Source: Fidelibacterota bacterium (GTDB lineage: Bacteria; Fidelibacterota; Marinisomatia; SCGC-AAA003-L08; TS1B11). From it: a DNA stretch of 35,746 nt. The translations under genes and the position numbers were made by a program. A model generated the notes under the pieces. The model was given only the letters and a program-made list of their open reading frames with translations. It did no database searches and was not told where the DNA came from. Positions 5,080 to 30,122 of this stretch are shown one piece after another. The stretch covers positions 1,885,557 through 1,921,302 of the forward strand of contig CP070638.1 of NCBI GenBank assembly GCA_020354025.1. Direction: 5' to 3'. Numbering within the stretch: position 1 is the first letter of the stretch; each line of letters starts with the position of its first letter.

Positions 5080-5493
5080 CTGTATAGCGATTTTGCACCG
5101 ATTCCGATATTCGCCCTCCTTTCCGCCGTTATTATCGTTGTGGCGCTCATCCTTCAGAGACTCGTCGCACCGGCGAGACGAGGCGCGCTGAAGCACTCCA
5201 CCTATGAATGCGGCGAAGAGGTTGAAGGCAGCGCCTGGACCCAGTTTAACATCCGCTTTTACGTCATCGCGCTGGTATTCCTTATTTTCGATGTGGAGGT
5301 AGTGATCCTGTTTCCCTGGGCGGTCGTATTCAAGGACATCGGCCTGGTGGCTTTTGTGGAGATGCTCATCTTCCTCTGTGTTCTAACGATCGGTCTGGTT
5401 GCCGTTTGGCGGCGGCGGGACCTTGATTGGGTGAAGATGGTCCTTCCCTATGCCCGAGGCCGCTACGCTCGTCTGACCAGGGACCCAGATTAA
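5080..5493 (+). CDS. nuoA: NADH-quinone oxidoreductase subunit A (11-subunit complex)
   Basis: Small membrane subunit at the junction of the quinone site and the pump arm. The translation from CTG at 5080 gives 137 residues starting with (M)YSDFAPIPIFALL, which fits the usual NuoA N-terminus (a short polar stretch with DFAP, then helix 1). The family loop HSTYECGEE and helix NIRFYVIALVFLIFDVEVV are clear. A start at GTG 5140 (117 residues) would delete helix 1, so I prefer the CTG with its AGGGAG site. It is the first gene of the rightward block, 68 bases before nuoB1. Confidence 0.93.
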   Translation: MYSDFAPIPIFALLSAVIIVVALILQRLVAPARRGALKHSTYECGEEVEGSAWTQFNIRFYVIALVFLIFDVEVVILFPWAVVFKDIGLVAFVEMLIFLCVLTIGLVAVWRRRDLDWVKMVLPYARGRYARLTRDPD

Positions 5494-5496
5494 GGG

Positions 5497-5511
5497 CAGG
5501 GCAAGTCCCTG
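5497..5511 (+). other. Small hairpin just after nuoA1
   Basis: CAGGG-CAAGT-CCCTG, five base pairs with a five-base loop, three bases past the nuoA1 stop and in the longest gap of the 28-gene block. No T-run follows, so it is not a standard terminator; it might be an mRNA processing or stability element, or chance. Confidence 0.25.
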
Positions 5512-5561
5512 ATCCGCGCTGAAGCCTCCCTGGTGGCACCGAGGAATAATAAGGTATAGTA

Positions 5562-6056
5562 ATGGACTTTTCCCTGGTAAACAGATATGACCAGGATAAC
5601 GTTGTAGTAGGCAAGCTGGACCAGCTAATCAACTGGGCCCGCTCGGGTTCGCCATGGTTTTTCCAGTTCGGTCTGGCCTGCTGCGCCATCGAGATGATAG
5701 CTGCCGCCCAACCCCGCTACGACCTGGAGCGGTTCGGCATTATGCCACGGGCCACTCCCCGCATGGCCGATGTCATGATCGTATCCGGCACGGTCACCCT
5801 GAAGATGGCCACCCGTCTCAAGCGGCTCTACGAGCAGATGGCCAATCCCAAATACGTGGTTTCCATGGGCAGCTGTGCCAACAGTGGAGGACCCTACTGG
5901 CAGCACGGTTACCATGTTGTAAAAGGCGTGGATCTGGTGGTACCGGTGGACGTCTATATTCCCGGCTGTCCCCCCCGACCGGAAGCGCTGCTCGAGGGAT
6001 TGCTGCACCTCAAGAAGAAGATCAGGGAAGAAACGCCCCTGCGAAAAGCAGCGTAA
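5562..6056 (+). CDS. nuoB: NADH-quinone oxidoreductase subunit B (11-subunit complex)
   Basis: Carries iron-sulphur cluster N2, which hands electrons to quinone. All four ligands are present: tandem Cys40-Cys41, Cys105 in GSCANSGG and Cys136 in GCPPRPEAL. The length (164 aa) is normal. It is of a different type from the second NuoB in this window: [18 protein letters not shown] here against [16 protein letters not shown] there. AAGG lies seven bases before the ATG. It is followed by nuoC1 after 21 bases, so the order is that of a classical nuo operon. Confidence 0.97.
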
Positions 6057-6077
6057 CACCTGAACCGTTACACCACC

Positions 6078-6569
6078 ATGGAATTTCCAGAGATCGTAAA
6101 ACAGATAGAGGCTGCATTCCCGGAGGCAGCTGTCTCAGTTGATGATACCGCTGGTTGTATATTGATAGCGTCTGAGAACTGGCTGGCGGTTGCAGAGTAT
6201 CTCAAGACCGATCCCGGGACCGCCTTTGATGCCCTGATGTGCCTGACGGGTTATGATCGTGGGCCAGAGGGTGTGTTAGGAGCAGCCTACAATCTGTATT
6301 CCATGGAACACGCACACAAGCTGGAGGTGCGCATCGAAACACCACGGGATGATAGTACAATACCTTCGGTAGCTCATATATGGCGTACGGCAGACTGGCA
6401 CGAACGGGAAGTCTATGATATGTTCGGCATCACCTTTGACGGACATCCTGATTTACGGCGCATGCTGCTGCCGGATGATTGGGAAGGGCATCCGTTGAGG
6501 AAGGATTACCAGATTCCCGATTTCTTCCATGGGATACCCGTCCCCAAGGATAAGCGAGGCTGGGAGTGA
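6078..6569 (+). CDS. nuoC: NADH-quinone oxidoreductase subunit C (11-subunit complex)
   Basis: 30-kDa hydrophilic subunit of the quinone module. The family signature is at residues 109-128 (EREVYDMFGI then FDGHPDLRR), followed by LLPDDWEGHPLRKDY. It is 163 residues and separate from NuoD, not a NuoCD fusion. Its TGA overlaps the GTG of nuoD1 (GTGA), which suggests coupled translation. Confidence 0.96.
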   Translation: MEFPEIVKQIEAAFPEAAVSVDDTAGCILIASENWLAVAEYLKTDPGTAFDALMCLTGYDRGPEGVLGAAYNLYSMEHAHKLEVRIETPRDDSTIPSVAHIWRTADWHEREVYDMFGITFDGHPDLRRMLLPDDWEGHPLRKDYQIPDFFHGIPVPKDKRGWE

Positions 6570-7717
6570 CCACTTCGGAAGCGATCCGGAAGAACTTCGG
6601 GGTAGTGGAAGCGGAGGAGATGGTCCTCAACATGGGGCCGCAGCATCCCAGCACCCACGGCGTACTGCGCCTGAAAATCCGGACCGATGGTGAGATTATC
6701 TCCCATATCGAGCCGCACATCGGTTACCTGCACCGCTGTTTTGAGAAGCATTGCGAGAACCTGACCTACCCGCAGGTAATCCCTTATACCGACCGCTGCG
6801 ATTACCTGGCTTCCATGAACAACAATCACATCTATGTTTTGGCGGTGGAAAAGCTCATGGGGCTCGAGGTCCCCGAAAGGGTGGAATACATTCGGGTGAT
6901 CATGGCCGAGCTCCAGCGTATCGCCAGCCACCTCATGGCGGTGGGGGCTCATGGGCTGGATACCGGTGGCATTACTCCTATCACCTACACCTTCCGCGAC
7001 CGGGAACGCATCCTGGACCTGTTCGAGTACACCTGCGGTGCACGGCTGCTGTATAACTATATCTGGATTGGAGGGGTGTCCCACGACCTGCCACCCGATT
7101 TTGTGCAGTACGCCACCGAATTCCTAGATTACTTCGAGCCTAAAATAGTCGAGTACAACCGCCTTCTAACATATAACAAGATTTTCATCGAGCGTTCGGC
7201 AGATGTAGGCGTATTGCCCGCAGATGTGGCCGTTAACTACGGCGCTTCCGGCCCTGTCCTCAGGGGCTCGGGCATTGACTGGGACCTGCGCCGGAATGAT
7301 CCCTATTCGATCTACGACCGTTTCGAATTTGACATTCCCATCGGAACGGGTGAGATGGGCACGGTGGGTGACAGCTGGGACCGCTATTTTGTACGTGTCA
7401 GGGAGATGGAGGAGAGCGTAAAAATTCTGCGTCAGGCGCTAGCCCGGCTGCCTAAAGACGGGGATGTTCATGCTGCGATACCCAAGAAAGTCCGGCCGCC
7501 GGAGGGAGCCATTTATTTTCGTGGTGAAAATCCACGGGGAGAGCTGGGCTTCTACATAATCAGTGACGGATCACCCAAGCCCTACCGGCTGAAGATGCGG
7601 TCACCCGCTTTCGTCAACCTATCCGTTTTCAGTGAAATCGCCACCGGCTGGATGCTCGCCGATATCATATCCATCCTTGGCAGCCTTGATATCGTGCTGG
7701 GGGAGATTGACCGGTGA
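6566..7717 (+). CDS. nuoD: NADH-quinone oxidoreductase subunit D (11-subunit complex)
   Basis: 49-kDa subunit that forms the quinone headgroup pocket with NuoB. The pocket residues match: His31 in GPQHPSTHG (equivalent to Thermus Nqo4 His38) and Tyr80 in RCDYLASMNNN (equivalent to Tyr87). The protein is 383 residues. Between the DRYFVRVREMEESVKI helix and the GELGFYIISDG block it lacks about 20 residues that NuoD2 has (the segment with EGLIHHF). The GTG start overlaps the nuoC1 stop, and its own stop overlaps the GTG of nuoH1. Confidence 0.97.
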   Translation: MTTSEAIRKNFGVVEAEEMVLNMGPQHPSTHGVLRLKIRTDGEIISHIEPHIGYLHRCFEKHCENLTYPQVIPYTDRCDYLASMNNNHIYVLAVEKLMGLEVPERVEYIRVIMAELQRIASHLMAVGAHGLDTGGITPITYTFRDRERILDLFEYTCGARLLYNYIWIGGVSHDLPPDFVQYATEFLDYFEPKIVEYNRLLTYNKIFIERSADVGVLPADVAVNYGASGPVLRGSGIDWDLRRNDPYSIYDRFEFDIPIGTGEMGTVGDSWDRYFVRVREMEESVKILRQALARLPKDGDVHAAIPKKVRPPEGAIYFRGENPRGELGFYIISDGSPKPYRLKMRSPAFVNLSVFSEIATGWMLADIISILGSLDIVLGEIDR

Positions 7718-8838
7718 GTTCCTTTATCGATACCATAGTGGATTTTTTAGTCCGACTGCTGGGAATACCACAGGGAGCGGCCGGATTCATGCTCATTCTC
7801 GTGGCCGTGGTCTTAGGGGTAGTGGTATTTCTTTTCACGGCGGTAAACGCGCTGGTGGCGGTCTATATGGAGCGCAAAGTATCGGCCTTCATGCAGGACC
7901 GACTAGGGCCGATGGAAGTTGGCTTCTGGGGCTTCCGGGGCGGGAAGCGCTTCTGGGGCGGCATTGCACAGACTCTGGCGGACACCTTCAAACTGCTCCT
8001 GAAGGAAGACATCATCCCCGACAAGTCCGACCGCAAATTATTTATCCTCGGACCGTTCATTCTTTACGGTGCCGTCTTCTGCGCTTTCATCGGAATTCCC
8101 CTCGGTTACGGAATGGCGATCTCTGATTTCAATATCGGCATTTTCTATGTGATCGCCATCAGCTCGGTCGGCGTGATCGGGATCATTCTATCAGGGTGGG
8201 GCTCGAATAACAAGTGGTCGCTGTATGGTGCCGTTCGCTCAGCCGCGCAGATAATCAGCTATGAACTGCCGGTGGGTATGTCGCTGCTGCTGGTGGTGAT
8301 GGTAGTTGGCAGCCTCCAGTTCCATGATATCGTAGCCTGGCAGGAGCAGCACCGGTGGTTCCTGTTCCACAGTCCCTTTACCATCGTGGCCTTCGTGATT
8401 TTCTTTCTATCCGGTGTGGCCGAAGCAAACCGGACACCATTCGATATCCCCGAGGCCGAATCGGAGCTGGTGGCGGGCTACATGACCGAGTATTCCGGCT
8501 TCCGGTGGGCCATCTTTTTCCTTTCGGAATACGCTAACATGGCCGTCATTTCACTCATGACCGCCATTGTTTTCCTGGGGGGATGGTTGTCGCCTGTCGG
8601 CGGACTCCTGCGCCTATTCGGTGTGCCGGAAGGGTGGTACTACCTGGACGGTTCTCTGTGGGGCGTCTTCTGGATTTCGGCCAAGGCGATCCTCTTCATT
8701 TTCATCATGATGTGGTTCCGATGGACCTGGCCCCGGCTGCGGGTGGATCAGCTGATGTACACTGCCTGGAAGGTGTTTCTGCCTATCGCCCTGCTGAACA
8801 TATTTTTCGTAGGTATCTGGGAACTGATCTTTGCTTAG
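7714..8838 (+). CDS. nuoH: NADH-quinone oxidoreductase subunit H (11-subunit complex)
   Basis: Membrane subunit that closes the quinone chamber and links it to the proton channels. Family blocks are AVYMERKVSAFMQDRLGP, the KEDIIP loop, and EANRTPFDIPEAESELVAGY with MTEYSGFRWAIFFLSEYANM. The protein is 374 residues, 34 longer than NuoH2. Part of the extra length is a Gly/Phe/Trp-rich insertion after DRLGP (EVGFWGFRGGKRFWGG). GTG start in a GTGA overlap with nuoD1. NuoEFG genes, normally between D and H, are absent. Confidence 0.97.
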   Translation: MSSFIDTIVDFLVRLLGIPQGAAGFMLILVAVVLGVVVFLFTAVNALVAVYMERKVSAFMQDRLGPMEVGFWGFRGGKRFWGGIAQTLADTFKLLLKEDIIPDKSDRKLFILGPFILYGAVFCAFIGIPLGYGMAISDFNIGIFYVIAISSVGVIGIILSGWGSNNKWSLYGAVRSAAQIISYELPVGMSLLLVVMVVGSLQFHDIVAWQEQHRWFLFHSPFTIVAFVIFFLSGVAEANRTPFDIPEAESELVAGYMTEYSGFRWAIFFLSEYANMAVISLMTAIVFLGGWLSPVGGLLRLFGVPEGWYYLDGSLWGVFWISAKAILFIFIMMWFRWTWPRLRVDQLMYTAWKVFLPIALLNIFFVGIWELIFA

Positions 8839-8841
8839 GGT

Positions 8842-9708
8842 ATGACAATGGCAGGCGAGGTGGGACAATACTTTCAGAACATAGGCGCGGCGGTCAGTAC
8901 CCTCTGGGATGGTATGCGGGTGACCATGGGCCATTTCATCAGAAAGAAGAAGCTCAACGCCACCCTCCAGTATCCGCGCGAACGGTGGCCCATCCCGGAG
9001 CGGCATATCGGCTTTGAGGAAGCCAAGTACAACGTCATCCGCTGCCGCCTGCACGTGGATATTGACGACTGTATCGGCTGTATGCAGTGCGTGCGGGCTT
9101 GCCCGGTGGACTGCATCAAGATCGAGACCATTAAGCTACCCAAGGACACCGAGCTGGGTTCGCTGCCGGGTAGCACCCAGACCAGCACTACTTCCAACGG
9201 CTCCGCCAAACGTCTGCTGGTATCCCGATTCGACATCGATCTGGCCGAGTGCATGTACTGCAACCTCTGCACCTTCCCCTGTCCGGAAGAGTGCATATAC
9301 ATGGTGGGTGGTCCCAACGGCCATCGGCACCCCATAGATTATGAATTTTCCGAGCGCGACCGGAACCGGCTGGTCTACCAGTTCGCCACGGCCACGGATG
9401 AAGAAGTGGAGCAGGTGTCAAAGCTGCTGGAAGCAGCGGCAGCAGTAAAAAAGCCGGCACCCGTCGCGACTGAGACCGCTGAGAAAGCTCCTGAGAAAAA
9501 AGATGCGGGAGAGAAAGAAATCGACCTGTCGATCCTGAACACTATCGAGGATCGCATTGCCCGCAGCAAGGCCAAGGTAATCCTTAACCAGACCCTGCGC
9601 CAGGGGAAGCCCCCTGGGGAGGCGGTCCAGGAGATCCGCAACACACTTACGGAGCTGGGCAAACTTGACGATCAAGTGGAAGCTGTACTAGCTCAGCTGG
9701 GGAAGTAG
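8842..9708 (+). CDS. nuoI: NADH-quinone oxidoreductase subunit I with long C-terminal extension
   Basis: Two-[4Fe-4S] subunit (clusters N6a and N6b) that feeds electrons to NuoB. Ligands are C77/C80/C83/C87 and C137/C140/C143/C147. The protein has 288 residues, against 176 for NuoI2. The gap between the two cysteine motifs is 18 residues longer, with a Ser/Thr/Gly-rich stretch around 107-122. After the second motif it continues for 141 residues instead of 56. That tail has an Ala/Pro/Lys/Glu-rich linker (about 198-226) and a predicted helical region (about 227-287). As this operon has no NuoEFG, NuoI is the outermost electron entry point and the tail may contact the donor. Starts at ATG 8842 or 8848. 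Confidence 0.95.
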   Translation: MTMAGEVGQYFQNIGAAVSTLWDGMRVTMGHFIRKKKLNATLQYPRERWPIPERHIGFEEAKYNVIRCRLHVDIDDCIGCMQCVRACPVDCIKIETIKLPKDTELGSLPGSTQTSTTSNGSAKRLLVSRFDIDLAECMYCNLCTFPCPEECIYMVGGPNGHRHPIDYEFSERDRNRLVYQFATATDEEVEQVSKLLEAAAAVKKPAPVATETAEKAPEKKDAGEKEIDLSILNTIEDRIARSKAKVILNQTLRQGKPPGEAVQEIRNTLTELGKLDDQVEAVLAQLGK

Positions 9709-9715
9709 GACGTTC

Positions 9716-10210
9716 GTGGGTAACGTAGTATTTATCGGAGTTGCAGTGCTGGTAGTGGTCTCCGCCTTTTTCGTGGTGACGGCCAGGAATCTGGTTTATT
9801 CAGCGGTAGCGCTGATGGGTACGCTCTTTGGTGTAGCGGGGCTGTACGTATTTCTATACGCTGATTTCATGGCGGCGGTGCAGATAGTGATTTACGTGGG
9901 CGGTATCCTGGTGCTGATAATCTTCGGCGTAATGCTGACGAACAAGATAGCCACTCCGGTACTGATCCAGACCAGTATGCCCAACCGCGCCCTGGCTGCT
10001 GTGGTGGTTTTCCTTATTTTCCTGGGTTTGACAACCCTCCTGTTCCGCACACCCTGGCACGAGGGCGCGACTGTCGCACCGGAAGGCACCGTGGCTACTA
10101 TCGGCCAGGCATTGCTGACCAAATACCTAATCCACTTTGAAGTGGCTGGAGTGCTATTGCTGCTGGCCCTTCTGGGTGCGGCCTACCTATCGAGGCGCGA
10201 AAATGGATAG
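9716..10210 (+). CDS. nuoJ: NADH-quinone oxidoreductase subunit J (11-subunit complex)
   Basis: Five-helix membrane subunit between NuoH and the antiporter-like subunits. The conserved helix 3 region reads LYADFMAAVQIVIYVGGILVL. The length is 164 aa. GTG start at 9716. Its last eight bases overlap the start of nuoK1, so the two are probably translated together. Confidence 0.93.
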   Translation: MGNVVFIGVAVLVVVSAFFVVTARNLVYSAVALMGTLFGVAGLYVFLYADFMAAVQIVIYVGGILVLIIFGVMLTNKIATPVLIQTSMPNRALAAVVVFLIFLGLTTLLFRTPWHEGATVAPEGTVATIGQALLTKYLIHFEVAGVLLLLALLGAAYLSRRENG

Positions 10211-10514
10211 CCTTCAATCTTATCTATTCCTCAGTATCATCCTGTTCTGTTTCGGGCTATACGGGGTCATGACCCGGCGCAACGGCGTGGCGATCCTCAT
10301 GGGGATCGAGCTTATCCTGAATTCGGCCAACCTAAACCTGGTGGCCTTTAACCGCTTCGGCGGCTTGTCGGAGCTTTTGCCAGGACATGTTTTCGCCCTG
10401 TTCGTGATCATTATGGCCGCTTCGGAAGCCGCGGTAGCCCTGGCGATCATCATCAATCTGTACAAGACCTTCCACACCGTGAACGTGGATGAGGCTCACG
10501 AGATGAGAGGCTAG
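10203..10514 (+). CDS. nuoK: NADH-quinone oxidoreductase subunit K (11-subunit complex)
   Basis: Three-helix, MrpC-like membrane subunit. The two membrane glutamates of the proton path are present at E36 (LMGIELILNSANLN) and E75 (MAASEAAVALAI). I use the ATG at 10203, giving 103 residues starting MDSLQSYLFLS, as in the family. A longer frame from 10137 only reads through nuoJ1 out of frame. Confidence 0.95.
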   Translation: MDSLQSYLFLSIILFCFGLYGVMTRRNGVAILMGIELILNSANLNLVAFNRFGGLSELLPGHVFALFVIIMAASEAAVALAIIINLYKTFHTVNVDEAHEMRG

Positions 10515-10516
10515 CC

Positions 10517-12589
10517 GTGGACGTCCGGACACAATTTGCCCTGATCATCCTATTCCTGCCACTGGCGTCCTGCGTACTGCAGATTTTCTTCGGACGGCGT
10601 CTGGGACCGAGGGGAGTATGGATTTCGGTGGCAGCCGAATTTGTCACACTCGTGCTGGCCTTCAGCATGCTGGCAACGGTAGTGCTGGGCACGCCCATGC
10701 AGCACTACCCGGAAGTAGAGTGGTTCTCTCTGGGCACATTCACCCTCACCCTGGGCTTCCAGCTCGACAACCTAGCAGTGGCCATGCTCATGGTTGTGGC
10801 GATCATTTCCTCCCTGGTACACCTTTATTCGGTCGAATACATGCGAGGGGATGTGCGCTATACCCGCTATTTCGGCTACCTAGGCCTGTTCACCTTTTCC
10901 ATGAACGGTATCGTCCTGGCCCACAGCCTGGTGATGATGTTCATATTCTGGGAGCTGGTGGGTCTGAGTTCCTACCTGCTCATCGGTCATTGGTTCGAGA
11001 AGGATTCCGCCGCCAGCGCCGGCAGGAAGGCTTTCCTCACCAACCGGGTGGGGGATATCGGGATGTTCATCGGCATCATGCTTTTCTGGGCGGCCGCAGG
11101 AACGTTCACTTTCCACGGCCTGTTCGAGGCGGTGGACGTGGAAGGAGCCAACCTCTTTGCGGGGCAGACCACCCTTTTAACGGTCGCCGGGATCATGGTG
11201 TTCATGGGAGCGGTGGGCAAATCGGCCCAGTTCCCCCTGCACATCTGGCTACCCGACGCCATGGAAGGCCCCACGCCCGTCTCGTGTCTCATTCACGCAG
11301 CGACCATGGTAGCCGCCGGCGTCTACATGATGGTGCGCATGTTCCCCATCCTGACGCCGGACGCCCTGTTGGTGGTAGGTGCTGTCGGTGCTATTACCGC
11401 GGTGCTCGGCGCGCTGATCGCCATCACCCAGTTCGACATAAAGCGGGTCCTGGCCTATTCCACTGTGAGCCAGCTGGGCTACATGATAATGGCGGTGGGC
11501 ATGGGGGCCCAGCAGGCGGCCTTCTTCCACCTGGCCACTCATGCCATGTTCAAGGGGCTGCTGTTCCTCTGTTCCGGCTCTGTCATCCACGCCATGCACC
11601 ACGCTCTGCACGAGAAGGGGGATCACAACACCGATCCTCAGGACATGCGCAATATGGGCGGGCTGCGTAAAAAGATGCCCATCACCTATATCACCATGTT
11701 AATCGGTGCTCTGGCGATTTCGGGTGTGCCCCTGTTCAGCGGTTTTCTGAGCAAGGATGCTATCCTGGCGGGCACTCTGGCCTTTGCCAGCGAGCATCAC
11801 CAGTGGTGGGCTGTGCTGTTTCCCATTGCCGGATTCGGGGCGGCGGCCGTGACCGCCTTCTACATGTTCCGCCTTATCTTCATGACCTTCCATGGGAAGC
11901 CGTCTGATGAGAAGGCCTACGAGCACATGGCCGAAACCCCGGCGGTGATGACGATGCCTCTGGTAATCCTGGCGGTGCTCTGCTTACCCCTATTCTTTAC
12001 TCTGCCGGGCCTGAATCCCTTCCAAGCCGAGGGGTGGTTCACCAACGTGATTCCCCAGGCGGAGAACCTCACCGGTTTTACCGAGTTGGGGGCAGAACAC
12101 CTGGAACACGGCTTCCACGAGGCCCACGGCATGGCCGTGCCCATTTCGATGAGTGTGGCGGGTTTGGGGATCGCTCTGTCCATAATTTTCTATCTACTAG
12201 GCTGGCTGAATCCCAAGACCTGGGCCGAGCGGCTGTGGCGTATTGGACTTTACCAGCTGTCGTTCTACAAATTTTACTTTGATGAGATCTACGATGCTCT
12301 CATCTACCGGCCCTTCCTGTGGCTGACCGATAAGGTCGCCTGGATCGATTGGGACCTGTGGGACCAGCGGTTTATTGACGGCTGGGGGCGGAACACGGTC
12401 CGGGCGGGCAACGCCTCGGGGTGGCTTGACTATCATTGGCTGGACCAGATCGTGATCGACGGTTTCGGCCGCATCACCAACGGACTGGGCGCAATCGGGC
12501 GCAGGCTTCAGACCGGCCGGGTGCAGAATTACCTCATGTGGGCCCTGGCCGGGGCAATTATCGTCTTTCTGGTGGCGGCGAGTATCTGA
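10517..12589 (+). CDS. nuoL: NADH-quinone oxidoreductase subunit L (11-subunit complex)
   Basis: Distal antiporter-like pump subunit of 690 residues, with the long lateral helix and last membrane segment at the C-terminus. The key blocks are present: FWELVGLSSYLLIGHWFE with its channel glutamate, and GKSAQFPLHIWLPDAMEGP with its lysine. Compared with NuoL2 it has an extra His/Asp-rich loop (HALHEKGDHNTDPQ) and a longer loop before the lateral helix (HLEHGFHEAHG). GTG start two bases after nuoK1. Confidence 0.97.
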   Translation: MDVRTQFALIILFLPLASCVLQIFFGRRLGPRGVWISVAAEFVTLVLAFSMLATVVLGTPMQHYPEVEWFSLGTFTLTLGFQLDNLAVAMLMVVAIISSLVHLYSVEYMRGDVRYTRYFGYLGLFTFSMNGIVLAHSLVMMFIFWELVGLSSYLLIGHWFEKDSAASAGRKAFLTNRVGDIGMFIGIMLFWAAAGTFTFHGLFEAVDVEGANLFAGQTTLLTVAGIMVFMGAVGKSAQFPLHIWLPDAMEGPTPVSCLIHAATMVAAGVYMMVRMFPILTPDALLVVGAVGAITAVLGALIAITQFDIKRVLAYSTVSQLGYMIMAVGMGAQQAAFFHLATHAMFKGLLFLCSGSVIHAMHHALHEKGDHNTDPQDMRNMGGLRKKMPITYITMLIGALAISGVPLFSGFLSKDAILAGTLAFASEHHQWWAVLFPIAGFGAAAVTAFYMFRLIFMTFHGKPSDEKAYEHMAETPAVMTMPLVILAVLCLPLFFTLPGLNPFQAEGWFTNVIPQAENLTGFTELGAEHLEHGFHEAHGMAVPISMSVAGLGIALSIIFYLLGWLNPKTWAERLWRIGLYQLSFYKFYFDEIYDALIYRPFLWLTDKVAWIDWDLWDQRFIDGWGRNTVRAGNASGWLDYHWLDQIVIDGFGRITNGLGAIGRRLQTGRVQNYLMWALAGAIIVFLVAASI

Positions 12590-12637
12590 GGCCGGGCCGT
12601 TATCATGTACGCCGAACCAAGAAGAAAGCTTGATTAA

Positions 12638-14206
12638 ATGGATGCTTACTTTTTAACCCTACTCGTTTTTCTGCCGGTACTTGGAGGCGGGATAATATTG
12701 CTGGTTCCGAGGGAGCGAGCAGACTTGATCAAATGGATTGCGGCTGGATTTACCGGCCTGCAGGTCCTGCTGGCCTTCTGGCTCTTCGCAGCTTTCGACC
12801 GTTCCAGCGACGTTATCCAATTCGCCGTGAAAGCGGCCTGGATTCCGGCCTTTAACATCAATTACCATGTGGGAGTGGACGGCCTCTCCATGCCCATGGT
12901 CTTCCTGACGGCGCTGCTGTCGTTTGTTTCCATCATCGCCAGTTGGAACATTACCAAGGCCCCCCGAGGCTACTTCAGCCTCTTCCTGCTGCTGGACGCC
13001 GGCATGATGGGAGTGTTCGTGGCCCTGGACTTCTTCCTGTTCTACGTGTTCTGGGAGGTAATGCTGCTGCCTATGTACTTCCTAATCGGGATGTGGGGCG
13101 GCCCCCAGCGGCAGTACGCGGCCATCAAGTTCTTTATTTATACCCTTTTCGGGTCAGTACTCATACTCCTGTCCATGCTGGCCTTCTATTTCTATACCGA
13201 GCCGCACACCTTCAGCCTGATCGCCCTGATCCAGGAGGCTCCCAAGATTAACGTGCAGCTGTGGGGCATGAATATAAAGTGGCTCATCTGGGTGGCGCTG
13301 TTCATCGGTTTTGCCATCAAAGTACCAATTTTCCCCTTCCATACCTGGCTGCCACTGGCCCACGTGGAAGCGCCCACGGCAGTGTCGGTGATCCTGGCCG
13401 GTGTGCTGTTAAAGATGGGGACCTACGGGTTGCTACGAATCAGCTATCCCCTGCTTCCGGATGAGACCATCGGATTCGCCACTTTCCTGGCGGTACTGGC
13501 GGTAATCAATATCATCTGGGGCGCGGCCAACGCCATTGCTCAGACAGACCTGAAACGTATGGTGGCCTACTCGTCGATTAGCCACATGGGCATGGTGCTG
13601 CTGGGTATGGCGGCGGTGGTGAGCAGCAGCCGTAGCGGTGCCCAGGCTGGTATGAACGGGGCGGTCCTGCAGATGTTCAACCACGGCACGATCACGGCTA
13701 TGCTCTTCCTATTGGTGGGTGTCATCTACGACCGGGCACACCACCGATACATTATCTACCCCAAGGATTACGAGGACGAAGCCCTCAGGGGTAAGCCGGG
13801 CTTCGGCGGCCTAGCGACGAATCTGCCGGTCTATTCAGGTTTCGTAGCCCTGGCCTTTTTTGCCGGCCTGGGACTGCCAGCTCTGTCGGCCTTCATCAGC
13901 GAGGCCATGTGTTTCATCGGCGGCTTCACCGCCTTCCGAACACTTACCATCATCGGTACGGTGGGGATTCTGCTGAACGCCACCTATTTCCTGCGGGCTT
14001 TCCAACGCATGTTCCTAGGACAGCCCAGCGAGAAATGGGCGGGTCTGACCGACATGTCAATCCGCGAGATCGGATTCATGGCACCCCTGGCCGTGATCGT
14101 TATTTTCCTGGGTGTCTTTCCCCGGCCAGCCCTGGATATCATGTCCGCCACCATGGACCGCCTCATTGACTTGGTTACGCTGGTTTCGCAGGTGGCAGTG
14201 CAGTAG
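12638..14206 (+). CDS. nuoM: NADH-quinone oxidoreductase subunit M (11-subunit complex)
   Basis: Antiporter-like pump subunit (522 aa). FYVFWEVMLLPMYFLIG holds the channel glutamate, and IKVPIFPFHTWLPLAHVEAP the central lysine region. In the latter the common WLPDAH is WLPLAH, whereas NuoM2 keeps the Asp. About 13 extra residues (SSSRSGAQAGMNGA) follow the YSSISHMGM block. The gene starts 48 bases after nuoL1; a 10-codon frame in that gap ends in TAAATG but is too short to call. Confidence 0.96.
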   Translation: MDAYFLTLLVFLPVLGGGIILLVPRERADLIKWIAAGFTGLQVLLAFWLFAAFDRSSDVIQFAVKAAWIPAFNINYHVGVDGLSMPMVFLTALLSFVSIIASWNITKAPRGYFSLFLLLDAGMMGVFVALDFFLFYVFWEVMLLPMYFLIGMWGGPQRQYAAIKFFIYTLFGSVLILLSMLAFYFYTEPHTFSLIALIQEAPKINVQLWGMNIKWLIWVALFIGFAIKVPIFPFHTWLPLAHVEAPTAVSVILAGVLLKMGTYGLLRISYPLLPDETIGFATFLAVLAVINIIWGAANAIAQTDLKRMVAYSSISHMGMVLLGMAAVVSSSRSGAQAGMNGAVLQMFNHGTITAMLFLLVGVIYDRAHHRYIIYPKDYEDEALRGKPGFGGLATNLPVYSGFVALAFFAGLGLPALSAFISEAMCFIGGFTAFRTLTIIGTVGILLNATYFLRAFQRMFLGQPSEKWAGLTDMSIREIGFMAPLAVIVIFLGVFPRPALDIMSATMDRLIDLVTLVSQVAVQ

Positions 14207-14237
14207 GCAGTGGCACTAAGAGGATTACTCTGAGAGC

Positions 14238-15728
14238 ATGTCTAACATCCAAAGTCTGACCTACTTCCTACCGGAGCTGATCCTAACGAGCTCTGCGATG
14301 GTGATCATCCTGACGGACGTGTTTTTCAGGGGCCGGAATCGCAACCGGCTCATCTGGCTGCTGAGCCTGGTGGCGCTAGGGATCGCGGCGATATTCCTGC
14401 TCCTCCAGACAACCCCCCCGGATGCCATTTTCTACGGCGCGTTGGCAGTTGATCCCTACAGCCGGTTCTTCAAGTGGATTTTCCTGCTGGCCACAGTAGT
14501 TATCTACGTAGTTTCGCCCTATTCCAGAGAGCTTGATAACAATCCGCGACACGAATACTACCTCTTCATGCTGCTGGTGGTATTCGGCCTGTTTCTGATG
14601 GCCTCGGCCCTTGACCTGATCATTGTCTATCTGTCCATCGAGATAGTGAGCATCGGTTCGTTTGTCCTGGCCGGTTTCCTCAAACAGGAACGGCTTTCAA
14701 ATGAATCCTCGCTGAAGTACGTCATATACGGAGCCCTCTCATCAGGAGTTATGCTATACGGCCTGAGCCTGCTGTTCGGGATTGCCGGATCCACCAATGT
14801 ATTCGATATCCAGGCGGCTCTTTCCGGGGTACCGGATAAAGCGCACCTCACGCTGGCAGTGGCTCTGCTGCTGGTCCTGACCGGTTTCGGCTACAAGATC
14901 GCCATGGTGCCTTTCCACTTCTGGACCCCGGACGTTTACCAGGGGGCACCCACCACCATAACGGCATACCTGTCGGTGGCACCCAAGGCCGCGGGATTTG
15001 CCCTGGCGCTGCGGATACTGGGCATCACCTTCGGGTCCAGTCCCGATATGAACCTAGGCGAATGGCTACCGGTAGAGGGGCTGCCCTTCGGTACACTAAT
15101 CGCTATCTTTTCCGCCGCCACAATGACGGTGGGCAACATCATCGCCATTCAGCAGAGCAGCGTCAAGCGACTGCTAGCCTACTCCAGCATCGCCCATGCC
15201 GGGTATATGCTCATGGCTGCCGCCATCCTCAACGCCCAAGCCGTCAGCGCCATCATGTTCTACCTAGCGGTCTACCTGTTCATGAACCTGGGGGCTTTCC
15301 TGGTTGCCATCTTTATCCACAACCGGTACGGCTACGATGAGATCGAGGAATGGAAGGGATTGGGTTTCCAGGCCCCGGCGGTTGCTGTCGCCATGGGTAT
15401 TTTTCTTTTCAGCCTTACCGGTCTGCCGCCTACCGCCGGATTCGTGGGTAAGGTTTACCTCTTTTCGGTTCTGATCGAAGCCCAGCAATTCTGGTGGCTC
15501 GCAGTGCTGGGAGTGTTGAATTCGGTGGTGTCTCTGTATTATTATATGCGTATTCTAAAGGCGATGTTCTTGGATAGTGAACCCACCGGTGAAAGGATCT
15601 CGGGCCATCCGGCGTTGTCCGGCACTATCCTCTTGCTGATGATACCGGTGCTGCTTTTCGGAGTATACTGGAGTCCACTGATGAACCTAGTGCGCTCTTC
15701 CCTAGAATTTTTCAGCCCGGGGATGTAA
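14238..15728 (+). CDS. nuoN: NADH-quinone oxidoreductase subunit N (11-subunit complex)
   Basis: Third antiporter-like pump subunit (496 aa). Family blocks: SLKYVIYGALSSGVMLYGLS, FKW helices, KIAMVPFHFWTPDVYQGAP, and KRLLAYSSIAHAGYMLMA. It ends the first cluster, giving the order A-B-C-D-H-I-J-K-L-M-N. The downstream gap to the thioesterase gene is only 21 bases and has no terminator-like hairpin. Confidence 0.96.
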   Translation: MSNIQSLTYFLPELILTSSAMVIILTDVFFRGRNRNRLIWLLSLVALGIAAIFLLLQTTPPDAIFYGALAVDPYSRFFKWIFLLATVVIYVVSPYSRELDNNPRHEYYLFMLLVVFGLFLMASALDLIIVYLSIEIVSIGSFVLAGFLKQERLSNESSLKYVIYGALSSGVMLYGLSLLFGIAGSTNVFDIQAALSGVPDKAHLTLAVALLLVLTGFGYKIAMVPFHFWTPDVYQGAPTTITAYLSVAPKAAGFALALRILGITFGSSPDMNLGEWLPVEGLPFGTLIAIFSAATMTVGNIIAIQQSSVKRLLAYSSIAHAGYMLMAAAILNAQAVSAIMFYLAVYLFMNLGAFLVAIFIHNRYGYDEIEEWKGLGFQAPAVAVAMGIFLFSLTGLPPTAGFVGKVYLFSVLIEAQQFWWLAVLGVLNSVVSLYYYMRILKAMFLDSEPTGERISGHPALSGTILLLMIPVLLFGVYWSPLMNLVRSSLEFFSPGM

Positions 15729-16296: not shown

Positions 16297-16662
16297 ATGA
16301 TCGGCGACTACTTACCAGTACTATTCGTATTTATCATGGCGGCGGGGCTGGCTGTGCTTTTGCTGGTGCTCACCCATCTCGTTGGGCCGCGGGTGAAGGA
16401 TAAGGTAAAACTCTCGCCCTACGAGTCGGGTGTGGATCCGGTAGCCCCGGCCCATACCCGCCTCAACATCCGCTACTTCATCGTGGGGCTGGTGTTTATC
16501 ATATTTGATATCGAGATAATTTTCCTCTATCCCTGGGCGGTTATTTTCAGCGACTTCATCAAACGGAGTCCCTTTATCCTCTATGAAATGTTGTTTTTCA
16601 TAGCCGTGCTACTCTTCGGTTATATATATGTCTGGCGAAAGAGGGTGTTTGAATGGGAGTAG
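16297..16662 (+). CDS. nuoA: NADH-quinone oxidoreductase subunit A (14-subunit complex)
   Basis: First subunit gene of the second complex I cluster (121 aa). It has three membrane helices, the loop [10 protein letters not shown] and helix [20 protein letters not shown]. It differs clearly from NuoA1 in loop and termini, so it is not a recent copy. No strong Shine-Dalgarno site is seen, which may reflect coupling to the thioesterase gene 22 bases upstream. Its end overlaps nuoB2 by ten bases. Confidence 0.96.
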
Positions 16663-17156
16663 AGCGAAGCGGAGGAATCGGATGGTTGAGCACCACGGTC
16701 GACGCATTTGCCAACTGGGCACGGAAGAATTCACTTTGGCCGATGCCTTTCGGTACCGCCTGCTGTGGTATTGAGTTCATGTCGGTTCTGGCGTCGCGCC
16801 ACGATATGGCACGGTTCGGGGCGGAAGCCATACGGTTTTCACCCCGGCAGTCAGACCTGCTGCTGGTAGCCGGACGGATTCCAATCAAGATGATGCCGGT
16901 CCTGACCCGGATTTACGAGCAGATGCCCGAGCCCAAGTGGATTATCGCTATGGGGGCTTGTGCCTCCAGCGGCGGGGTGTTCGATACCTACAGTGTGGTC
17001 CAGGGGATCGATAACTTCCTCCCGGTAGATGTATATATCCCCGGCTGCCCGCCGCGGCCTGAGGCCATCCTCGATGCACTTATAAAGATCCAGAAACTGA
17101 TCAAGCGGGATTCTCTAGGCCACTACAAGCCGCCCGTGGAAGAAACCGCTACCTAG
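16653..17156 (+). CDS. nuoB: NADH-quinone oxidoreductase subunit B (14-subunit complex)
   Basis: N2-cluster subunit (167 aa). The ligands are Cys37-Cys38, Cys103 (GACASSGG) and Cys132 (GCPPRPEAI). The [16 protein letters not shown] and [10 protein letters not shown] blocks put it in a different NuoB subgroup from the first cluster's protein. The ATG overlaps the nuoA2 end by ten bases. Confidence 0.97.
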
Positions 17157-17160
17157 CGTT

Positions 17161-17700
17161 ATGCTGCCCAAGGACCAGCTGACCGTTGTTATAAAGGAAA
17201 AGTTTCCCGATTCCTTCCTCGAGATAACCGATTTCCGGGATATGCTGACTATTCACATCCGCGGTGAACAGGTGCTGGACCTGCTGAGGACGTTGAAGAC
17301 CGATCCCCGGTTCGCCTTCAACTTTCTGGCAGACATCACAGCAGTAGATCATCTGGAGATGGATGCTCCTGCGCGCTTTGCGGTGGTCTATCACCTGCTC
17401 AACCAGCACGAAGTCAGGCGGATAGTGGTCCGTGCGTGGGTGGATGAGGAACATCCCTCGCTGCCATCCGTCTACCCCCTGTGGAAGACGGCCGACTGGC
17501 AGGAGCGGGAGGTCTATGACCTGTTCGGTATCGAATTCACCGGACATCCTGACCTGAGGCGTATCATGACCCCAGATGACTTTCAGCACCACCCCCTACG
17601 GAAGGACTACCCGCTCCAAGGACGCGGTGAGCGCAGCAACTTCCCGGTTGTAAAGCGCCGGATCGGCAGCAAATGGCAGGAAGATAAAAGCGTCCAATGA
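17161..17700 (+). CDS. nuoC: NADH-quinone oxidoreductase subunit C (14-subunit complex)
   Basis: 30-kDa quinone-module subunit (179 aa). The signature at 115-134 reads EREVYDLFGI then EFTGHPDLRR, followed by MTPDDFQHHPLRKDYPLQGRGE. The gene starts four bases after nuoB2 and ends in an ATGA overlap with nuoD2. Confidence 0.97.
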   Translation: MLPKDQLTVVIKEKFPDSFLEITDFRDMLTIHIRGEQVLDLLRTLKTDPRFAFNFLADITAVDHLEMDAPARFAVVYHLLNQHEVRRIVVRAWVDEEHPSLPSVYPLWKTADWQEREVYDLFGIEFTGHPDLRRIMTPDDFQHHPLRKDYPLQGRGERSNFPVVKRRIGSKWQEDKSVQ

Positions 17701-18896
17701 CCCTCGAAGCGAAAGATCTGAGCACTGAGAAGCTGGTCCTGAATTTCGGGCCATCTCACCCGGCGACCCACGGAACCCTCCGAGTGATTATGGAGATTGA
17801 TGGTGAAAGAGTGACTAAGGTGACTCCTGAAATCGGCTTTCTCCATTGTGGATTTGAAAAGCTGGGTGAGCACCTGGACTACAACCAGTACATCACGGTT
17901 ACCGACCGCATGAACTACCTGTCGCCTATGTGCAACAACTTTGCATTTGTTCTGGCGGCAGAGAAGCTGCTGGATCTGGAGGTGCCAAAGCGGGCCCAGT
18001 ATATACGGGTGCTGATGTGCGAGCTGTCCCGCATCGCCGATCACCTGCTGCAGATCGGGATGCAGGCGGTGGATATCGGGGCCTTCACCGTATTTCTTTA
18101 CGGCTTCCGATTACGTGAGCGGATCTATGATCTATTTGAGCTAGCCTACGGAGCCCGCCTTACCACCAGTTATGCCCGGGTGGGGGGTCTTATGCGGGAC
18201 CTGCCCGATTCCTTCATGCCGGCAGCGCTTGATCTGCTGGATATGGCGCCTGGTACCTTCAAGGAAATAGACGGTCTGCTTACTCATAACCGCATCTGGC
18301 TGGACAGGACCAGGGGCATCGGTCCCGTCGGCCCCGAAGACGCCATCTCCTACGGCCTCACCGGGCCGATTGCGCGGGCATCCGGAGTGGACTACGACCT
18401 GCGGACAAAGGAACCCTACTCTTCCTACGAGGATTTCGACTTCGATGTCATTATAGGCAGTAACGGAGACGTCTATGACCGCTACCTCGTGCGGCTATAC
18501 GAGATGCGGGAGAGTCTGAAAATCTGCCGCCAAGTTCTGGAAAAAATGCCTGGCGGCCCGGTTAATGTGGATGCCGATTCCAAGTATATCCTTCCCCCCC
18601 GGGAGGAGATGTTTGGCTCCATTGAGGGGCTAATTCACCATTTTATGATCACCATGGAGAACCAGGGATTGACACCTCCGGTGGGCGAGGCATATGTCCC
18701 AACCGAAAGTCCCAATGGCGAGTTAGGTTTCTTTATCGTCAGCGACGGCGGCCGGGAGCCTTACCGGGTTCGAACCCGTCCCCCATCATTGATCAACTAC
18801 TCGGCGTTTCCCGTAATGATGGAAAATATGATGGTGTCGGATACGGTGGCGATTCTAGGCAGCCTGAACGTGATCGCCGGGGAGCTGGACCGGTGA
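17697..18896 (+). CDS. nuoD: NADH-quinone oxidoreductase subunit D (14-subunit complex)
   Basis: 49-kDa quinone-site subunit (399 aa). His25 in GPSHPATHG and Tyr74 in RMNYLSPMCNN correspond to the quinone-binding His and Tyr. It has the full segment EGLIHHFMITMENQG before VPTESPNGELGFFIVSDGG, unlike NuoD1. The ATG overlaps the nuoC2 stop, and its TGA overlaps the GTG of nuoE. Confidence 0.98.
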   Translation: MTLEAKDLSTEKLVLNFGPSHPATHGTLRVIMEIDGERVTKVTPEIGFLHCGFEKLGEHLDYNQYITVTDRMNYLSPMCNNFAFVLAAEKLLDLEVPKRAQYIRVLMCELSRIADHLLQIGMQAVDIGAFTVFLYGFRLRERIYDLFELAYGARLTTSYARVGGLMRDLPDSFMPAALDLLDMAPGTFKEIDGLLTHNRIWLDRTRGIGPVGPEDAISYGLTGPIARASGVDYDLRTKEPYSSYEDFDFDVIIGSNGDVYDRYLVRLYEMRESLKICRQVLEKMPGGPVNVDADSKYILPPREEMFGSIEGLIHHFMITMENQGLTPPVGEAYVPTESPNGELGFFIVSDGGREPYRVRTRPPSLINYSAFPVMMENMMVSDTVAILGSLNVIAGELDR

Positions 18897-19366
18897 GTTT
18901 TGCGTTCACCGCTGACCGTAAGAAGCGCTTCAACGCCCTGCTGAAGCAGTATCCGGATAAGCGGTCAGCCGCCTTACCCGCCCTGCATCTGGCCCAGGAT
19001 CAAGAGGGCTACCTGACAACGGAGACCATTGAAACCCTGGCGCAGATGCTGGACATCACACCCGCGAGCCTGATGGATACGATCTCTTTCCATACCCTTT
19101 TCCATACCAAGCCGCGAGGGAAGTATCTGCTCCAGGTGTGTCAGACACTTTCCTGCAGCCTGGCCGGGGCTGATGAGATCGTAGACCACCTTTCACACAA
19201 GTACCAGGTCAAGGCGGGGGAGACGACGCCGGACGGGAAGTATACCCTTCTCAAGGTGGAGTGCCTGGGGGCCTGCGATACGGCACCCGTCGTACAGATC
19301 AACGACGATTATTACGAGAAAGTGTCCAAAGACAAGCTGAATCGAATCTTGGATAAGCTGCCGTGA
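18893..19366 (+). CDS. nuoE: NADH-quinone oxidoreductase subunit E
   Basis: [2Fe-2S] (N1a) subunit of the NADH-oxidising module, 157 aa. The thioredoxin-like fold ligands are Cys83 and Cys88 (CQTLSC), and Cys124 and Cys128 (CLGAC). GTG start in a GTGA overlap with nuoD2; the end overlaps nuoF in the same way. The first cluster has no counterpart. Confidence 0.97.
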   Translation: MSFAFTADRKKRFNALLKQYPDKRSAALPALHLAQDQEGYLTTETIETLAQMLDITPASLMDTISFHTLFHTKPRGKYLLQVCQTLSCSLAGADEIVDHLSHKYQVKAGETTPDGKYTLLKVECLGACDTAPVVQINDDYYEKVSKDKLNRILDKLP

Positions 19367-20664
19367 GCGATTACCAGCCAATCCTGACCATGCATGCCGG
19401 CCAGCCGGGTTCGGCCACGAGGGACTATTATCTGGCAAACGGAGGCTACCGGGCAGCCCGCAGGGCGGTCCTGGATATGAACAGTGACGATATTATCCAG
19501 ATGGTGAAGTACTCGAACCTTCAGGGTCGCGGAGGTGCGGGTTTTCCGGCGGGTGTGAAATGGAGTTTCGTTCCCAGAGATGACAAGCGCGCTAAATACC
19601 TGATCTGCAACGCTGATGAGGGTGAGCCGGGAACTTTTAAGGATCGGATGCTGATCAACCACAATCCACACCAGTTGATCGAGGGGATGATTATTGCCAG
19701 CAGGGCTATCGACTGTCACCTGGCCTTCATCTATATCCGAGGGGAGTTTGCCAAGGAGGCCCGGTTGCTGGAAGCGGCCGTGGAGGAGTGCCGGGCTAGC
19801 AATATCCTGGGCAAGAAAATTTTCGGTGGAAAGTATGACCTTGATATCCTGGTCTATCGGGGTGGTGGAGCCTATATCTGCGGAGAGGAAATGGCCCTCA
19901 TCGAGTCTCTGGAAGGTAAGCGCGGCTGGCCCCGGATCAAGCCGCCCTTCCCGGCCATCGAAGGCTATCTGCGCTGCCCTACTATTGTGAACAATGTGGA
20001 GACGCTGTCCAACCTGCCCCATATTGTCAACAACGGTGCCGAGTGGTTCCGCGGCATCGGCGCCAGCCCCGACAGTCCGGGGCCGAAGCTCTACTGTCTC
20101 AGTGGTCACGTAAGAAAGCCCGGTGTTTACGAAGCACCCATGGGCACCAAACTAACTACCCTCATTTTTACACATGCCGGCGGGACTACTGAGGGCAAGA
20201 AGCTGAAAGCGGCTATTCCCGGTGGCAGCTCTGCTCCGGTCCTCACCGCCGACGAGATTGAAGATTTGAAAATGGATTTTCCATCGCTGACGGCAGCCGG
20301 CAGTATGCTAGGGTCGGGAGGAATCATTGTAATGGATGAAACCACCGACATGGTACAGGCTTGTTACAACCTCGCCCGCTTTTATGCTCATGAATCATGC
20401 GGCCAGTGCACTCCTTGCCGGGAGGGGACCACCTGGCTGACGAAGGTCCTCCGCCGCTTCACTCAGGGTCGGGGGAGAATGGAGGATATAGATCTGATTG
20501 GGGATATTACCGACAACATTGGCGGCCTCTGCGATTTTTCTAAAGGGAGTTTCGGTAAGACCATCTGTCCCTTCGGGGAAGCGGTGTCCTGGCCGATCAG
20601 AGCCTTTATGGACAAGTTCAGGGATGAATTTGAAGCCTACCTGCCAAAGGAGGAGGCAGCCTAG
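19363..20664 (+). CDS. nuoF: NADH-quinone oxidoreductase subunit F (NADH/FMN-binding)
   Basis: Oxidises NADH with FMN and passes electrons to cluster N3. The Gly-rich nucleotide motif GRGGAGFPAG is at 55-64, the FMN region NADEGEPGTFKDR begins at 83, and GGGAYICGEE lies at 167-176. N3 ligands are C346, C349, C352 (ESCGQCTPCREG) and C402 (TICPFGE). At 433 residues it is a normal stand-alone NuoF, not fused to a NuoE-like domain. GTG start overlaps nuoE by four bases. Confidence 0.98.
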   Translation: MSDYQPILTMHAGQPGSATRDYYLANGGYRAARRAVLDMNSDDIIQMVKYSNLQGRGGAGFPAGVKWSFVPRDDKRAKYLICNADEGEPGTFKDRMLINHNPHQLIEGMIIASRAIDCHLAFIYIRGEFAKEARLLEAAVEECRASNILGKKIFGGKYDLDILVYRGGGAYICGEEMALIESLEGKRGWPRIKPPFPAIEGYLRCPTIVNNVETLSNLPHIVNNGAEWFRGIGASPDSPGPKLYCLSGHVRKPGVYEAPMGTKLTTLIFTHAGGTTEGKKLKAAIPGGSSAPVLTADEIEDLKMDFPSLTAAGSMLGSGGIIVMDETTDMVQACYNLARFYAHESCGQCTPCREGTTWLTKVLRRFTQGRGRMEDIDLIGDITDNIGGLCDFSKGSFGKTICPFGEAVSWPIRAFMDKFRDEFEAYLPKEEAA

Positions 20665-22262
20665 TGCCCCTGCTCAAGCTAGATGATCACGAGCTGGAAG
20701 TTCCCAAGGGTACCAAGATTCTCGATGCGGCCCTGAAAGTCGGCATTGAGATCCCCCATTACTGCTACCATCCGGCTCTATCCATAGCGGGCAGCTGCCG
20801 CATGTGCCTGGTAGAGGTGGAGGGTATGCCCAAGCTCCAGACCGCCTGTTCCACGCCGGTCAGGGAGCTGCCGCCCGAGAAAAAAATTGACGGCAGGTAT
20901 GATATGGTGGTCCATACGACGACCGGGAAAGTGACTGCCGCTCGTAAGCTGGTGCTGGAGTTTCTGCTTCTAAACCATCCTCTTGACTGCCCGGTGTGCG
21001 ATCAGGCCGGGGAGTGCCTGCTGCAGGATTATTCGTTCAAGTACGGGGAGGCTCACAGCCGGTTCGTCGAGGACAAACGGGTCCAGCCCGGGGAGGAATT
21101 GGGATCGGGAGTGGTTATCAATCTCAACCGCTGTATCCTGTGTACCAGGTGCGTTCGTTTCAACCGAGAGATTACGGGAACCGGTGAATTATTCGTTGAG
21201 AATCGCGGGTATCACAATAAAATCGCTGTATTTGATGGGAAGCCCCTGGATAATCCATTGGCGGGCAACGTAGCGGACATTTGTCCAGTGGGAGCGCTAC
21301 TACTGAAAGACTATATCCATTCCACGCGAGTCTGGCACCTATCCCATACGCCTTCAGTCTGCACGGAGTGCAGCGCCGGCTGCAGCATAACCGTGGATGC
21401 GGCCAACGACCGGATATATCGGATCGTTAGCCGCGAAAACGAACAGGCCAACGGTCACTTCATCTGCGATACCGGCCGCTATGCCTTCCATACCTATGCG
21501 GAAGGTGTCCTCACCGAACCTCTCATGCGAGCCAAGCGGGGTTGGAAGGCACTCAGCTGGGACCTGGCGTACCGGACCGTAGCGGATCAGATAGACAGGC
21601 ACGGAGGTAAAGGGGCGGTGCGCGCCCTGGCTTCACCCACTTTCCCCAACGAGAGCAGCTTCCTCCTGGGCCAGTTGATGCAGCGCCTCTCGGACAAGAG
21701 AAACGTAGCTCTCATCCCGGTGAAACGGGAAGCCGACCAGACCTTCCCAGCCGGCTTCAAGATCAGTGGCGACAAGGGCGGCAACCGCCGGGGAGCTGAG
21801 GACATGATCGGTAAGCTGGCAGCGGGCTTCAAGTCCTTTTTTAAGGACGAGGAGGGTGTCCTTCTGGTCATGGATGCCGACGGGCGGGCCGAGGTTACGG
21901 CTGATTTGAAAGGGCTTTTCGAGAGTTCCTCATTCAAAGTGGTGCTAGCCAGCAACGAGTCAAATATCACGGCTATGGCGGACCTAGTACTGCCGGTAGC
22001 AGGTCCCTTTGAGCGGGAAGGTACTGTAACCAATGACCAAGGTCTGGTGCAGTGGCTGCAGCTAGCTCTGGAGCGTAAAGGACAGGCTCGTCCTGCCTGG
22101 CTGGTGCTGGCCGAACTGGATCGACTGCTGACTGGCGAAGCGAGTCTATATACCTGTGCCGGTGATGTCACCTGGAAAATCAACCGGGCTATCTCCGCCT
22201 ACAGTCAGGCCACTAGATTCAAGCTAGGCCTTAAGGGGCAGCTTCTAACGGGTACTGGATAA
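20664..22262 (+). CDS. nuoG: NADH-quinone oxidoreductase subunit G (short form)
   Basis: Iron-sulphur wire of the N-module. [2Fe-2S] N1b: C34, C45, C48, C62. N5: H105, C109, C112, C118. N4: C157, C160, C163, C207. N7 is complete: C233, C236, C240, C268. The molybdopterin-oxidoreductase-like part after residue 270 is compact. It still ends with the family block ADLVLPVAGPFEREGTVTN, but the total of 532 residues is well below the roughly 690-900 often seen. The shortening therefore looks internal rather than a truncated end. GTG start overlaps the nuoF stop by one base. Confidence 0.96.
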   Translation: MPLLKLDDHELEVPKGTKILDAALKVGIEIPHYCYHPALSIAGSCRMCLVEVEGMPKLQTACSTPVRELPPEKKIDGRYDMVVHTTTGKVTAARKLVLEFLLLNHPLDCPVCDQAGECLLQDYSFKYGEAHSRFVEDKRVQPGEELGSGVVINLNRCILCTRCVRFNREITGTGELFVENRGYHNKIAVFDGKPLDNPLAGNVADICPVGALLLKDYIHSTRVWHLSHTPSVCTECSAGCSITVDAANDRIYRIVSRENEQANGHFICDTGRYAFHTYAEGVLTEPLMRAKRGWKALSWDLAYRTVADQIDRHGGKGAVRALASPTFPNESSFLLGQLMQRLSDKRNVALIPVKREADQTFPAGFKISGDKGGNRRGAEDMIGKLAAGFKSFFKDEEGVLLVMDADGRAEVTADLKGLFESSSFKVVLASNESNITAMADLVLPVAGPFEREGTVTNDQGLVQWLQLALERKGQARPAWLVLAELDRLLTGEASLYTCAGDVTWKINRAISAYSQATRFKLGLKGQLLTGTG

Positions 22263-23284: not shown

Positions 23285-23311
23285 TGGCATGGGAAATGAT
23301 GAGGTAATGTA

Positions 23312-24342: not shown

Positions 24343-24345
24343 GTG

Positions 24346-29637: not shown

Positions 29638-29642
29638 CCGCT

Positions 29643-30116: not shown

Positions 30117-30122
30117 ACAGTC

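Follow-up and report, generated by a model that had tools for sequence, protein, structure and literature searches.

We report that an 11-subunit complex I of Marinimicrobia (Neomarinimicrobiota), largely uncultivated bacteria that abound in the ocean, carries a previously undescribed family of appended domains. The tail unit found at the C-terminus of its NuoI is a repeated, mobile module whose hosts are NuoI, NuoC and START-domain proteins. Our tentative interpretation is that the tail acts as a docking arm tethered at the site, exposed in this enzyme, where electrons enter, and that it most likely recruits an electron donor (ferredoxin or flavodoxin); we give this interpretation somewhat less than an even chance. 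A common donor for 11-subunit complex I has been sought without success, and outside photosynthesis the donor is an open question (PMC11238625). The sequences indicate a likely donor site and offer handles on it: a defined unit, an invariant arginine/lysine pair and a fusion of NuoI with flavodoxin, the latter being a natural clue to how the 11-subunit enzyme may be fed. A literature search, in which subscription journals were thinly covered, found no description of such a NuoI/NuoC module or of a NuoI-flavodoxin fusion.

Architecture of NuoI1 and its C-terminal unit

The window (the whole stretch of 35,746 nucleotides that was analysed, from a genome whose named close relatives, Candidatus Neomarinimicrobiota, mark it as a Marinimicrobia) contains two nuo operons on the forward strand, recognised from the order of their open reading frames. 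The first (5140-15728) holds nuoA, nuoB, nuoC, nuoD and nuoH to nuoN and lacks nuoE, nuoF and nuoG, which is the gene set of an 11-subunit complex I; the second (16297-31565) is a complete 14-subunit operon. Between nuoM2 and nuoN2 of the latter, at 28147-30116, two genes were recognised by eye, one for a putative Na+/H+ antiporter-type transporter and the other for a putative protein of the universal-stress type.

The nuoI1 gene of the 11-subunit operon (8842-9708, forward strand, 288 residues) lies between nuoH1 and nuoJ1. Its product has 4Fe-4S matches in Pfam and two CxxCxxCxxxCP motifs, with cluster cysteines C77/C80/C83/C87 and C137/C140/C143/C147 that are invariant in an alignment of 30 relatives (A2); the second motif, CMYCNLCTFPCP, begins at residue 137, and its last cysteine is C147. 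NuoI1 scores below the NCBIfam naming cut-offs (TIGR01971, 62.5 bits versus 113; NF004537, 66.1 versus 163), probably because of an insertion between the clusters. These cut-offs govern naming only, and the two motifs together with the nuoH/nuoJ context identify the protein as NuoI. The inter-cluster hairpin (residues 97-126; 9130-9219, forward strand) exceeds that of solved complex I homologues by about 20 residues: in PDB alignments the step from query residue 96 to 127 spans about 9-10 target residues. Hairpin residues T117, S118, T121 and K123 are conserved in A2, and the insertion may also bear on the donor, by analogy with the NdhI hairpin that binds ferredoxin in NDH-1.

The initial annotation had counted 141 residues after the second cysteine motif of NuoI1 against 56 in NuoI2, and had described an extra tail of about 85 residues made of an Ala/Pro/Lys/Glu linker and a helical region. 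Both counts, taken from the last cluster cysteine, are correct (position 9283 opens the codon of residue 148), and linker and helices follow each other as described. The length had to be revised: the conserved NuoI core (residues 1-195, 8842-9426, with both 4Fe-4S motifs in A2) still includes residues 148-195, which leaves about 93 residues as the actual extension. This extension consists of the Ala/Pro/Lys/Glu-rich linker (residues 196-225, 9427-9516), whose sequence is not conserved and which is predicted to be disordered over residues 210-223, and of the tail unit, a compact four-helix module (residues 226-288, 9517-9705), all on the forward strand.

AlphaFold2, run on the unit with 38 related units, predicted four helices, with a mean pLDDT of 89.7 and a pTM of 0.75. 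In a prediction of full-length NuoI1, which the initial annotation had proposed, the unit reached pLDDT values of 94-98 and linker residues 210-223 about 43; the alignment behind this model was shallow and its core only moderate. The helices occupy residues 229-234, 238-253, 258-271 and 277-287. A Foldseek comparison of the unit with the PDB gave no match at E ≤ 0.001, Pfam gave nothing above chance across the 38 unit members, and neither NCBIfam (for the tail) nor a defence-system search returned a match. A PDB sequence search with the unit retrieved just designed helical proteins and chance matches; the weak similarity to designed helical repeats and to one hemolysin domain, at E of about 0.02, we likewise attribute to chance.

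The 38 long-type units (alignment A1) share the consensus xxDxKxLNxIxDRMxRGxAKKAFxAAxRAGK...ALxxAGKLxxExxxILxxL, in which R17, A20, K21, L45 and K50 are invariant. The R-x-x-x-K pair R17/K21, corresponding to R242/K246 in NuoI1, is invariant in all 38 aligned long units and also in 25 short units, where it is R26/K30. The long units have a mean net charge of only +0.8, which gives no support to the idea of a strongly basic unit acting as a simple ferredoxin magnet. Pairwise dN/dS is about 0.05-0.32 for the units (where dS was measurable and the units correspond), 0.17-0.59 for the linker (again where measurable) and 0.02-0.18 for the core, several dS values being near saturation. These values indicate purifying selection on the units and free drift of the linker in sequence and length. 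The tail has a confidently predicted fold and is conserved, the two properties on which the initial annotation had made its reading depend.

Distribution of the unit among complex I subunits and START-domain proteins

A unit profile search of the window's genome returned NuoI1 as its single match. NuoI2 (23312-23842) and NuoC2 (17161-17700) of the 14-subunit operon are unit-free, and so is the product of nuoC1 (6078-6569, forward strand), whose homologue in the operons of other families has an N-terminal unit. GlmS of the window's genome (E = 0.05) and GatB of one relative were considered as further unit carriers; both matches were weak and taken as chance, and Foldseek retrieved no GatB structure. 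In the order to which this genome belongs, the unit forms a repeat of 1-5 copies at the NuoI C-terminus. Of the 14 good genomes, 13 have it; the exception (G013) has a NuoI frame of 210 residues. In other families of the class it stands at the N-terminus of the 11-subunit enzyme's NuoC, in one or two shorter copies (LIxxxVxKALxGDMDxINxIEDRVTRxKAKAALVKAKR; alignment A3). Long and short units share a homologous core according to hhalign (probability 98.4, E = 5.8e-15, 29 columns), a comparison that is not fully independent, the A3 members having been recruited with the A1 profile.

The gene order of the window's 11-subunit operon recurs in 70 related loci, some of which end at contig ends; nuoE, nuoF and nuoG occur in 0 of the 70, and none has nuoEFG between nuoD and nuoH. 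The unit is found on NuoI in 26 of these operons, on NuoC in 19 and on both in none; among complex I subunits its carriers are exclusively NuoI or NuoC (45/70). Several families have the 11-subunit enzyme without any unit. This search of other 11-subunit operons had been suggested in the initial annotation, which tied the tail to an enzyme without NuoEFG; in keeping with that, the searches of the relatives' genomes turned up no tail unit on their 14-subunit NuoI.

In a tree of NuoI cores, NuoI-tailed rows form one well-supported set of 28, with the long-branched L162 outside, and NuoC-tailed rows form another; the tail labels require 8 changes on this tree versus 29.9 when shuffled. Within the phylum, 105 of 244 genomes match the short-unit profile, as against none of 336 genomes from two sister phyla (0/296 and 0/40 in the phyla of Melioribacter and Calditrichaceae). 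Two assemblies stood out. A locus labelled Flavobacteriaceae (L138, PACY01000057.1) has a NuoI core identical to that of a Neomarinimicrobiota locus (L139), and bin SRR3965592_bin.3 (L113 and L153) holds NuoI-tailed and NuoC-tailed operons together; both are probably cases of mis-binning.

START/polyketide-cyclase-like proteins are the third host of the unit, usually with 2-4 copies. In families f13 and f14 a conserved gene row runs START-units, HEAT membrane protein, Rieske, cytochrome b N-part and cytochrome b C-part, the unit-bearing START gene being first in the bc operon (L184:3945-9229, L183 and L185-L188). At the f13 loci this gene adjoins a divergent ctaA, which was not seen at the f14 locus L184; in families f7-f8 it lies outside any bc operon. 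Among the matches listed, families f7 and f9 have units on START proteins only. The window's order has them on NuoI only, barring single exceptions such as L096 (2037-2735, reverse strand), a 233-residue protein of an unidentified family with several cysteines and one long-type unit at its C-terminus. This mismatch indicates that the START and complex I hosts are independent of each other, and a homotypic tether between complex I and the bc complex through units on both sides does not fit it.

A NuoI-flavodoxin fusion and the possible roles of the tail

In isolate NAT62 (L116/L017, NZVQ01000035.1), the NuoI frame of 683 residues comprises the core, a linker start that is the same as in its sister L119, and two long-chain flavodoxin domains; it has no unit. 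The flavodoxin model TIGR01752 matches the fusion at E = 7e-113, and its score, summed over two stretches, is 373.9 bits against a cut-off of 146.75; Pfam Flavodoxin_1 matches at 1.3e-43, also over two stretches. Both flavodoxins are complete and, in this single lineage, occupy the position of the relatives' units. The fused protein is nested within the tailed clade of the NuoI-core tree. The fusion is known from one metagenome-assembled genome, which encodes a free-standing flavodoxin besides it. Flavodoxin matches at E ≤ 1e-15 occur in 40 of 244 genomes of the phylum, and the window's genome has none at this threshold. If the carrier has indeed been fused to NuoI in place of docking, the fusion would identify the donor directly.

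In the E. coli enzyme, the C-terminal extension of NuoI lies against NuoG, NuoB, NuoF and NuoE; both this end of NuoI and NuoC adjoin NuoG, and a NuoG loop occupies the crevice between NuoCD and NuoI (PMC8357420). Judging by this packing, NuoI and NuoC would frame the face that is exposed in the 11-subunit enzyme. A docking arm on this face would start with the disordered linker, leaving the end of NuoI near clusters N6a/N6b, on what is the NuoG face of the 14-subunit enzyme, and would carry the four-helix unit as an adaptor at its tip. The unit would bind a donor, be it reduced ferredoxin, a 2-oxoacid:ferredoxin oxidoreductase (OFOR) that produces it, or flavodoxin, and would thereby enrich the donor locally where electrons enter the complex. 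The invariant R242/K246 pair of NuoI1 is the prime candidate for making this contact. We infer the docking and the identity of the partner, and take the face of the complex from the E. coli structures.

Donor recruitment is favoured by the conserved fold carried on a flexible arm, by its position on NuoI or NuoC in operons that all lack nuoEFG, by its absence from 14-subunit NuoI, by the flavodoxins that replace it in one lineage and by the four OFOR gamma domains encoded in the window's genome. It is also favoured by the docking of ferredoxin on NdhI in NDH-1, where basic patches attract acidic ferredoxins (PMC6992706), and by an earlier proposal of flavodoxin as donor for the Marinimicrobia enzyme (PMC6143742). 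The suggestion in the initial annotation that the tail could dock a donor gains partial support from the two flavodoxins at the unit position in one lineage. Several observations weigh against it. START proteins, which have no known ferredoxin electron uptake, bear the unit too, and its ligand may be no carrier; the mean net charge of the long units is low; unit-less 11-subunit enzymes in some families imply that the unit is not essential; and the fusion comes from a single metagenome-assembled genome, with no flavodoxin found in that of the window at the above threshold.

In two single-cell genomes labelled Patescibacteria AH-259-L05/L07 (L129:3575-6561 and L121:3597-6579), Marinimicrobia-like NuoB and NuoI directly follow an OFOR beta subunit and a PorD-like 2[4Fe-4S] ferredoxin, the remaining complex I being absent from the stretch examined. 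The arrangement suggests a link from OFOR through ferredoxin to NuoI; contamination and transfer are both candidate explanations for its occurrence there.

More broadly, Marinimicrobia might have evolved a portable, dedicated family of docking domains for attaching electron carriers or partners in respiration to the face of the 11-subunit enzyme that lacks NuoEFG. The family would have moved between NuoC and NuoI and once been replaced by a fused carrier, the two flavodoxins, that would directly identify the donor. We regard this wider picture as a real possibility, though less likely than not. The readings were ordered as donor recruitment, respiratory-chain tether, self-association or localisation, cover of the NuoG site, and no function.

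The second of these supposes that the unit binds a partner common to complex I and the START-domain (quinone/lipid-binding-like) proteins; the unit would then link the enzyme with a quinone chaperone or with the bc complex and would not serve to catch a soluble donor. The unit core shared between NuoC/NuoI and the multi-copy START proteins, and the START gene at the head of the HEAT-Rieske-cytochrome b operon in two families, speak for such a tether. We nevertheless consider it rather unlikely: among the matches listed, f7 and f9 have unit-bearing START proteins without a complex I unit, the window's order has the unit on NuoI, and the START gene of f7-f8 is not in a bc operon.

A module for localisation or self-association, clustering complex I without regard to the donor, would suit the tandem copies, the invariant arginine and lysine positions and the low-complexity linkers. 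It seems improbable to us, as NuoI and NuoC, both near the electron entry, are the sole complex I hosts, and the replacement by flavodoxins would be left unexplained. Slightly less probable still is a tail that covers or staples the surface of the NuoG site, stabilising the exposed Q-module or aiding assembly; the initial annotation had offered covering of that site as an alternative. The packing of the E. coli NuoI extension and the flanking of the NuoG site by NuoC and NuoI fit such a cover; a largely disordered linker of about 30 residues, 1-5 tandem copies, the swap between NuoI and NuoC and the absence of the unit from several families do not. A neutral, functionless low-complexity extension, to which the free drift of the linker would conform, is already largely refuted and most improbable, because all but one of the order's 14 good genomes keep the unit, with low dN/dS and a confident predicted fold next to a drifting linker.

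Comparison with known systems

A close likeness is to the 11-subunit 'nNDH' of Marinimicrobia (PMC6143742), which agrees in gene set and order, in NuoI as the candidate electron entry and in having no NADH module. The enzymes described here differ from it in that a flexible arm with a hitherto undescribed four-helix module extends from NuoI or NuoC, or flavodoxins take the module's place. Photosynthetic NDH-1 (PMC6992706) offers an analogy in that electrons enter at NdhI/NuoI from a carrier and not from NADH; there, however, docking is achieved by the NdhI hairpin and NdhH with the help of the separate subunits NdhS and NdhV, whereas here the module is appended to NuoI or NuoC.

The complex I of Campylobacter, which includes NuoX and NuoY (Weerakoon and Olson 2008), is, according to the account in PMC6682613, alike in probably using a flavodoxin or ferredoxin donor without NuoEF. 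In that account separate subunits replace NuoEF, whereas here units or, in one lineage, flavodoxin are fused to NuoI. Finally, the C-terminal extension of E. coli NuoI (PMC8357420) is likewise lineage-specific; it too springs from this end of NuoI and lies at the interface with the N-module. It is an extended segment of about 42 residues that packs on NuoG, NuoE and NuoF in a 14-subunit enzyme, in contrast to the folded unit on a disordered linker found here in an enzyme without NuoG.
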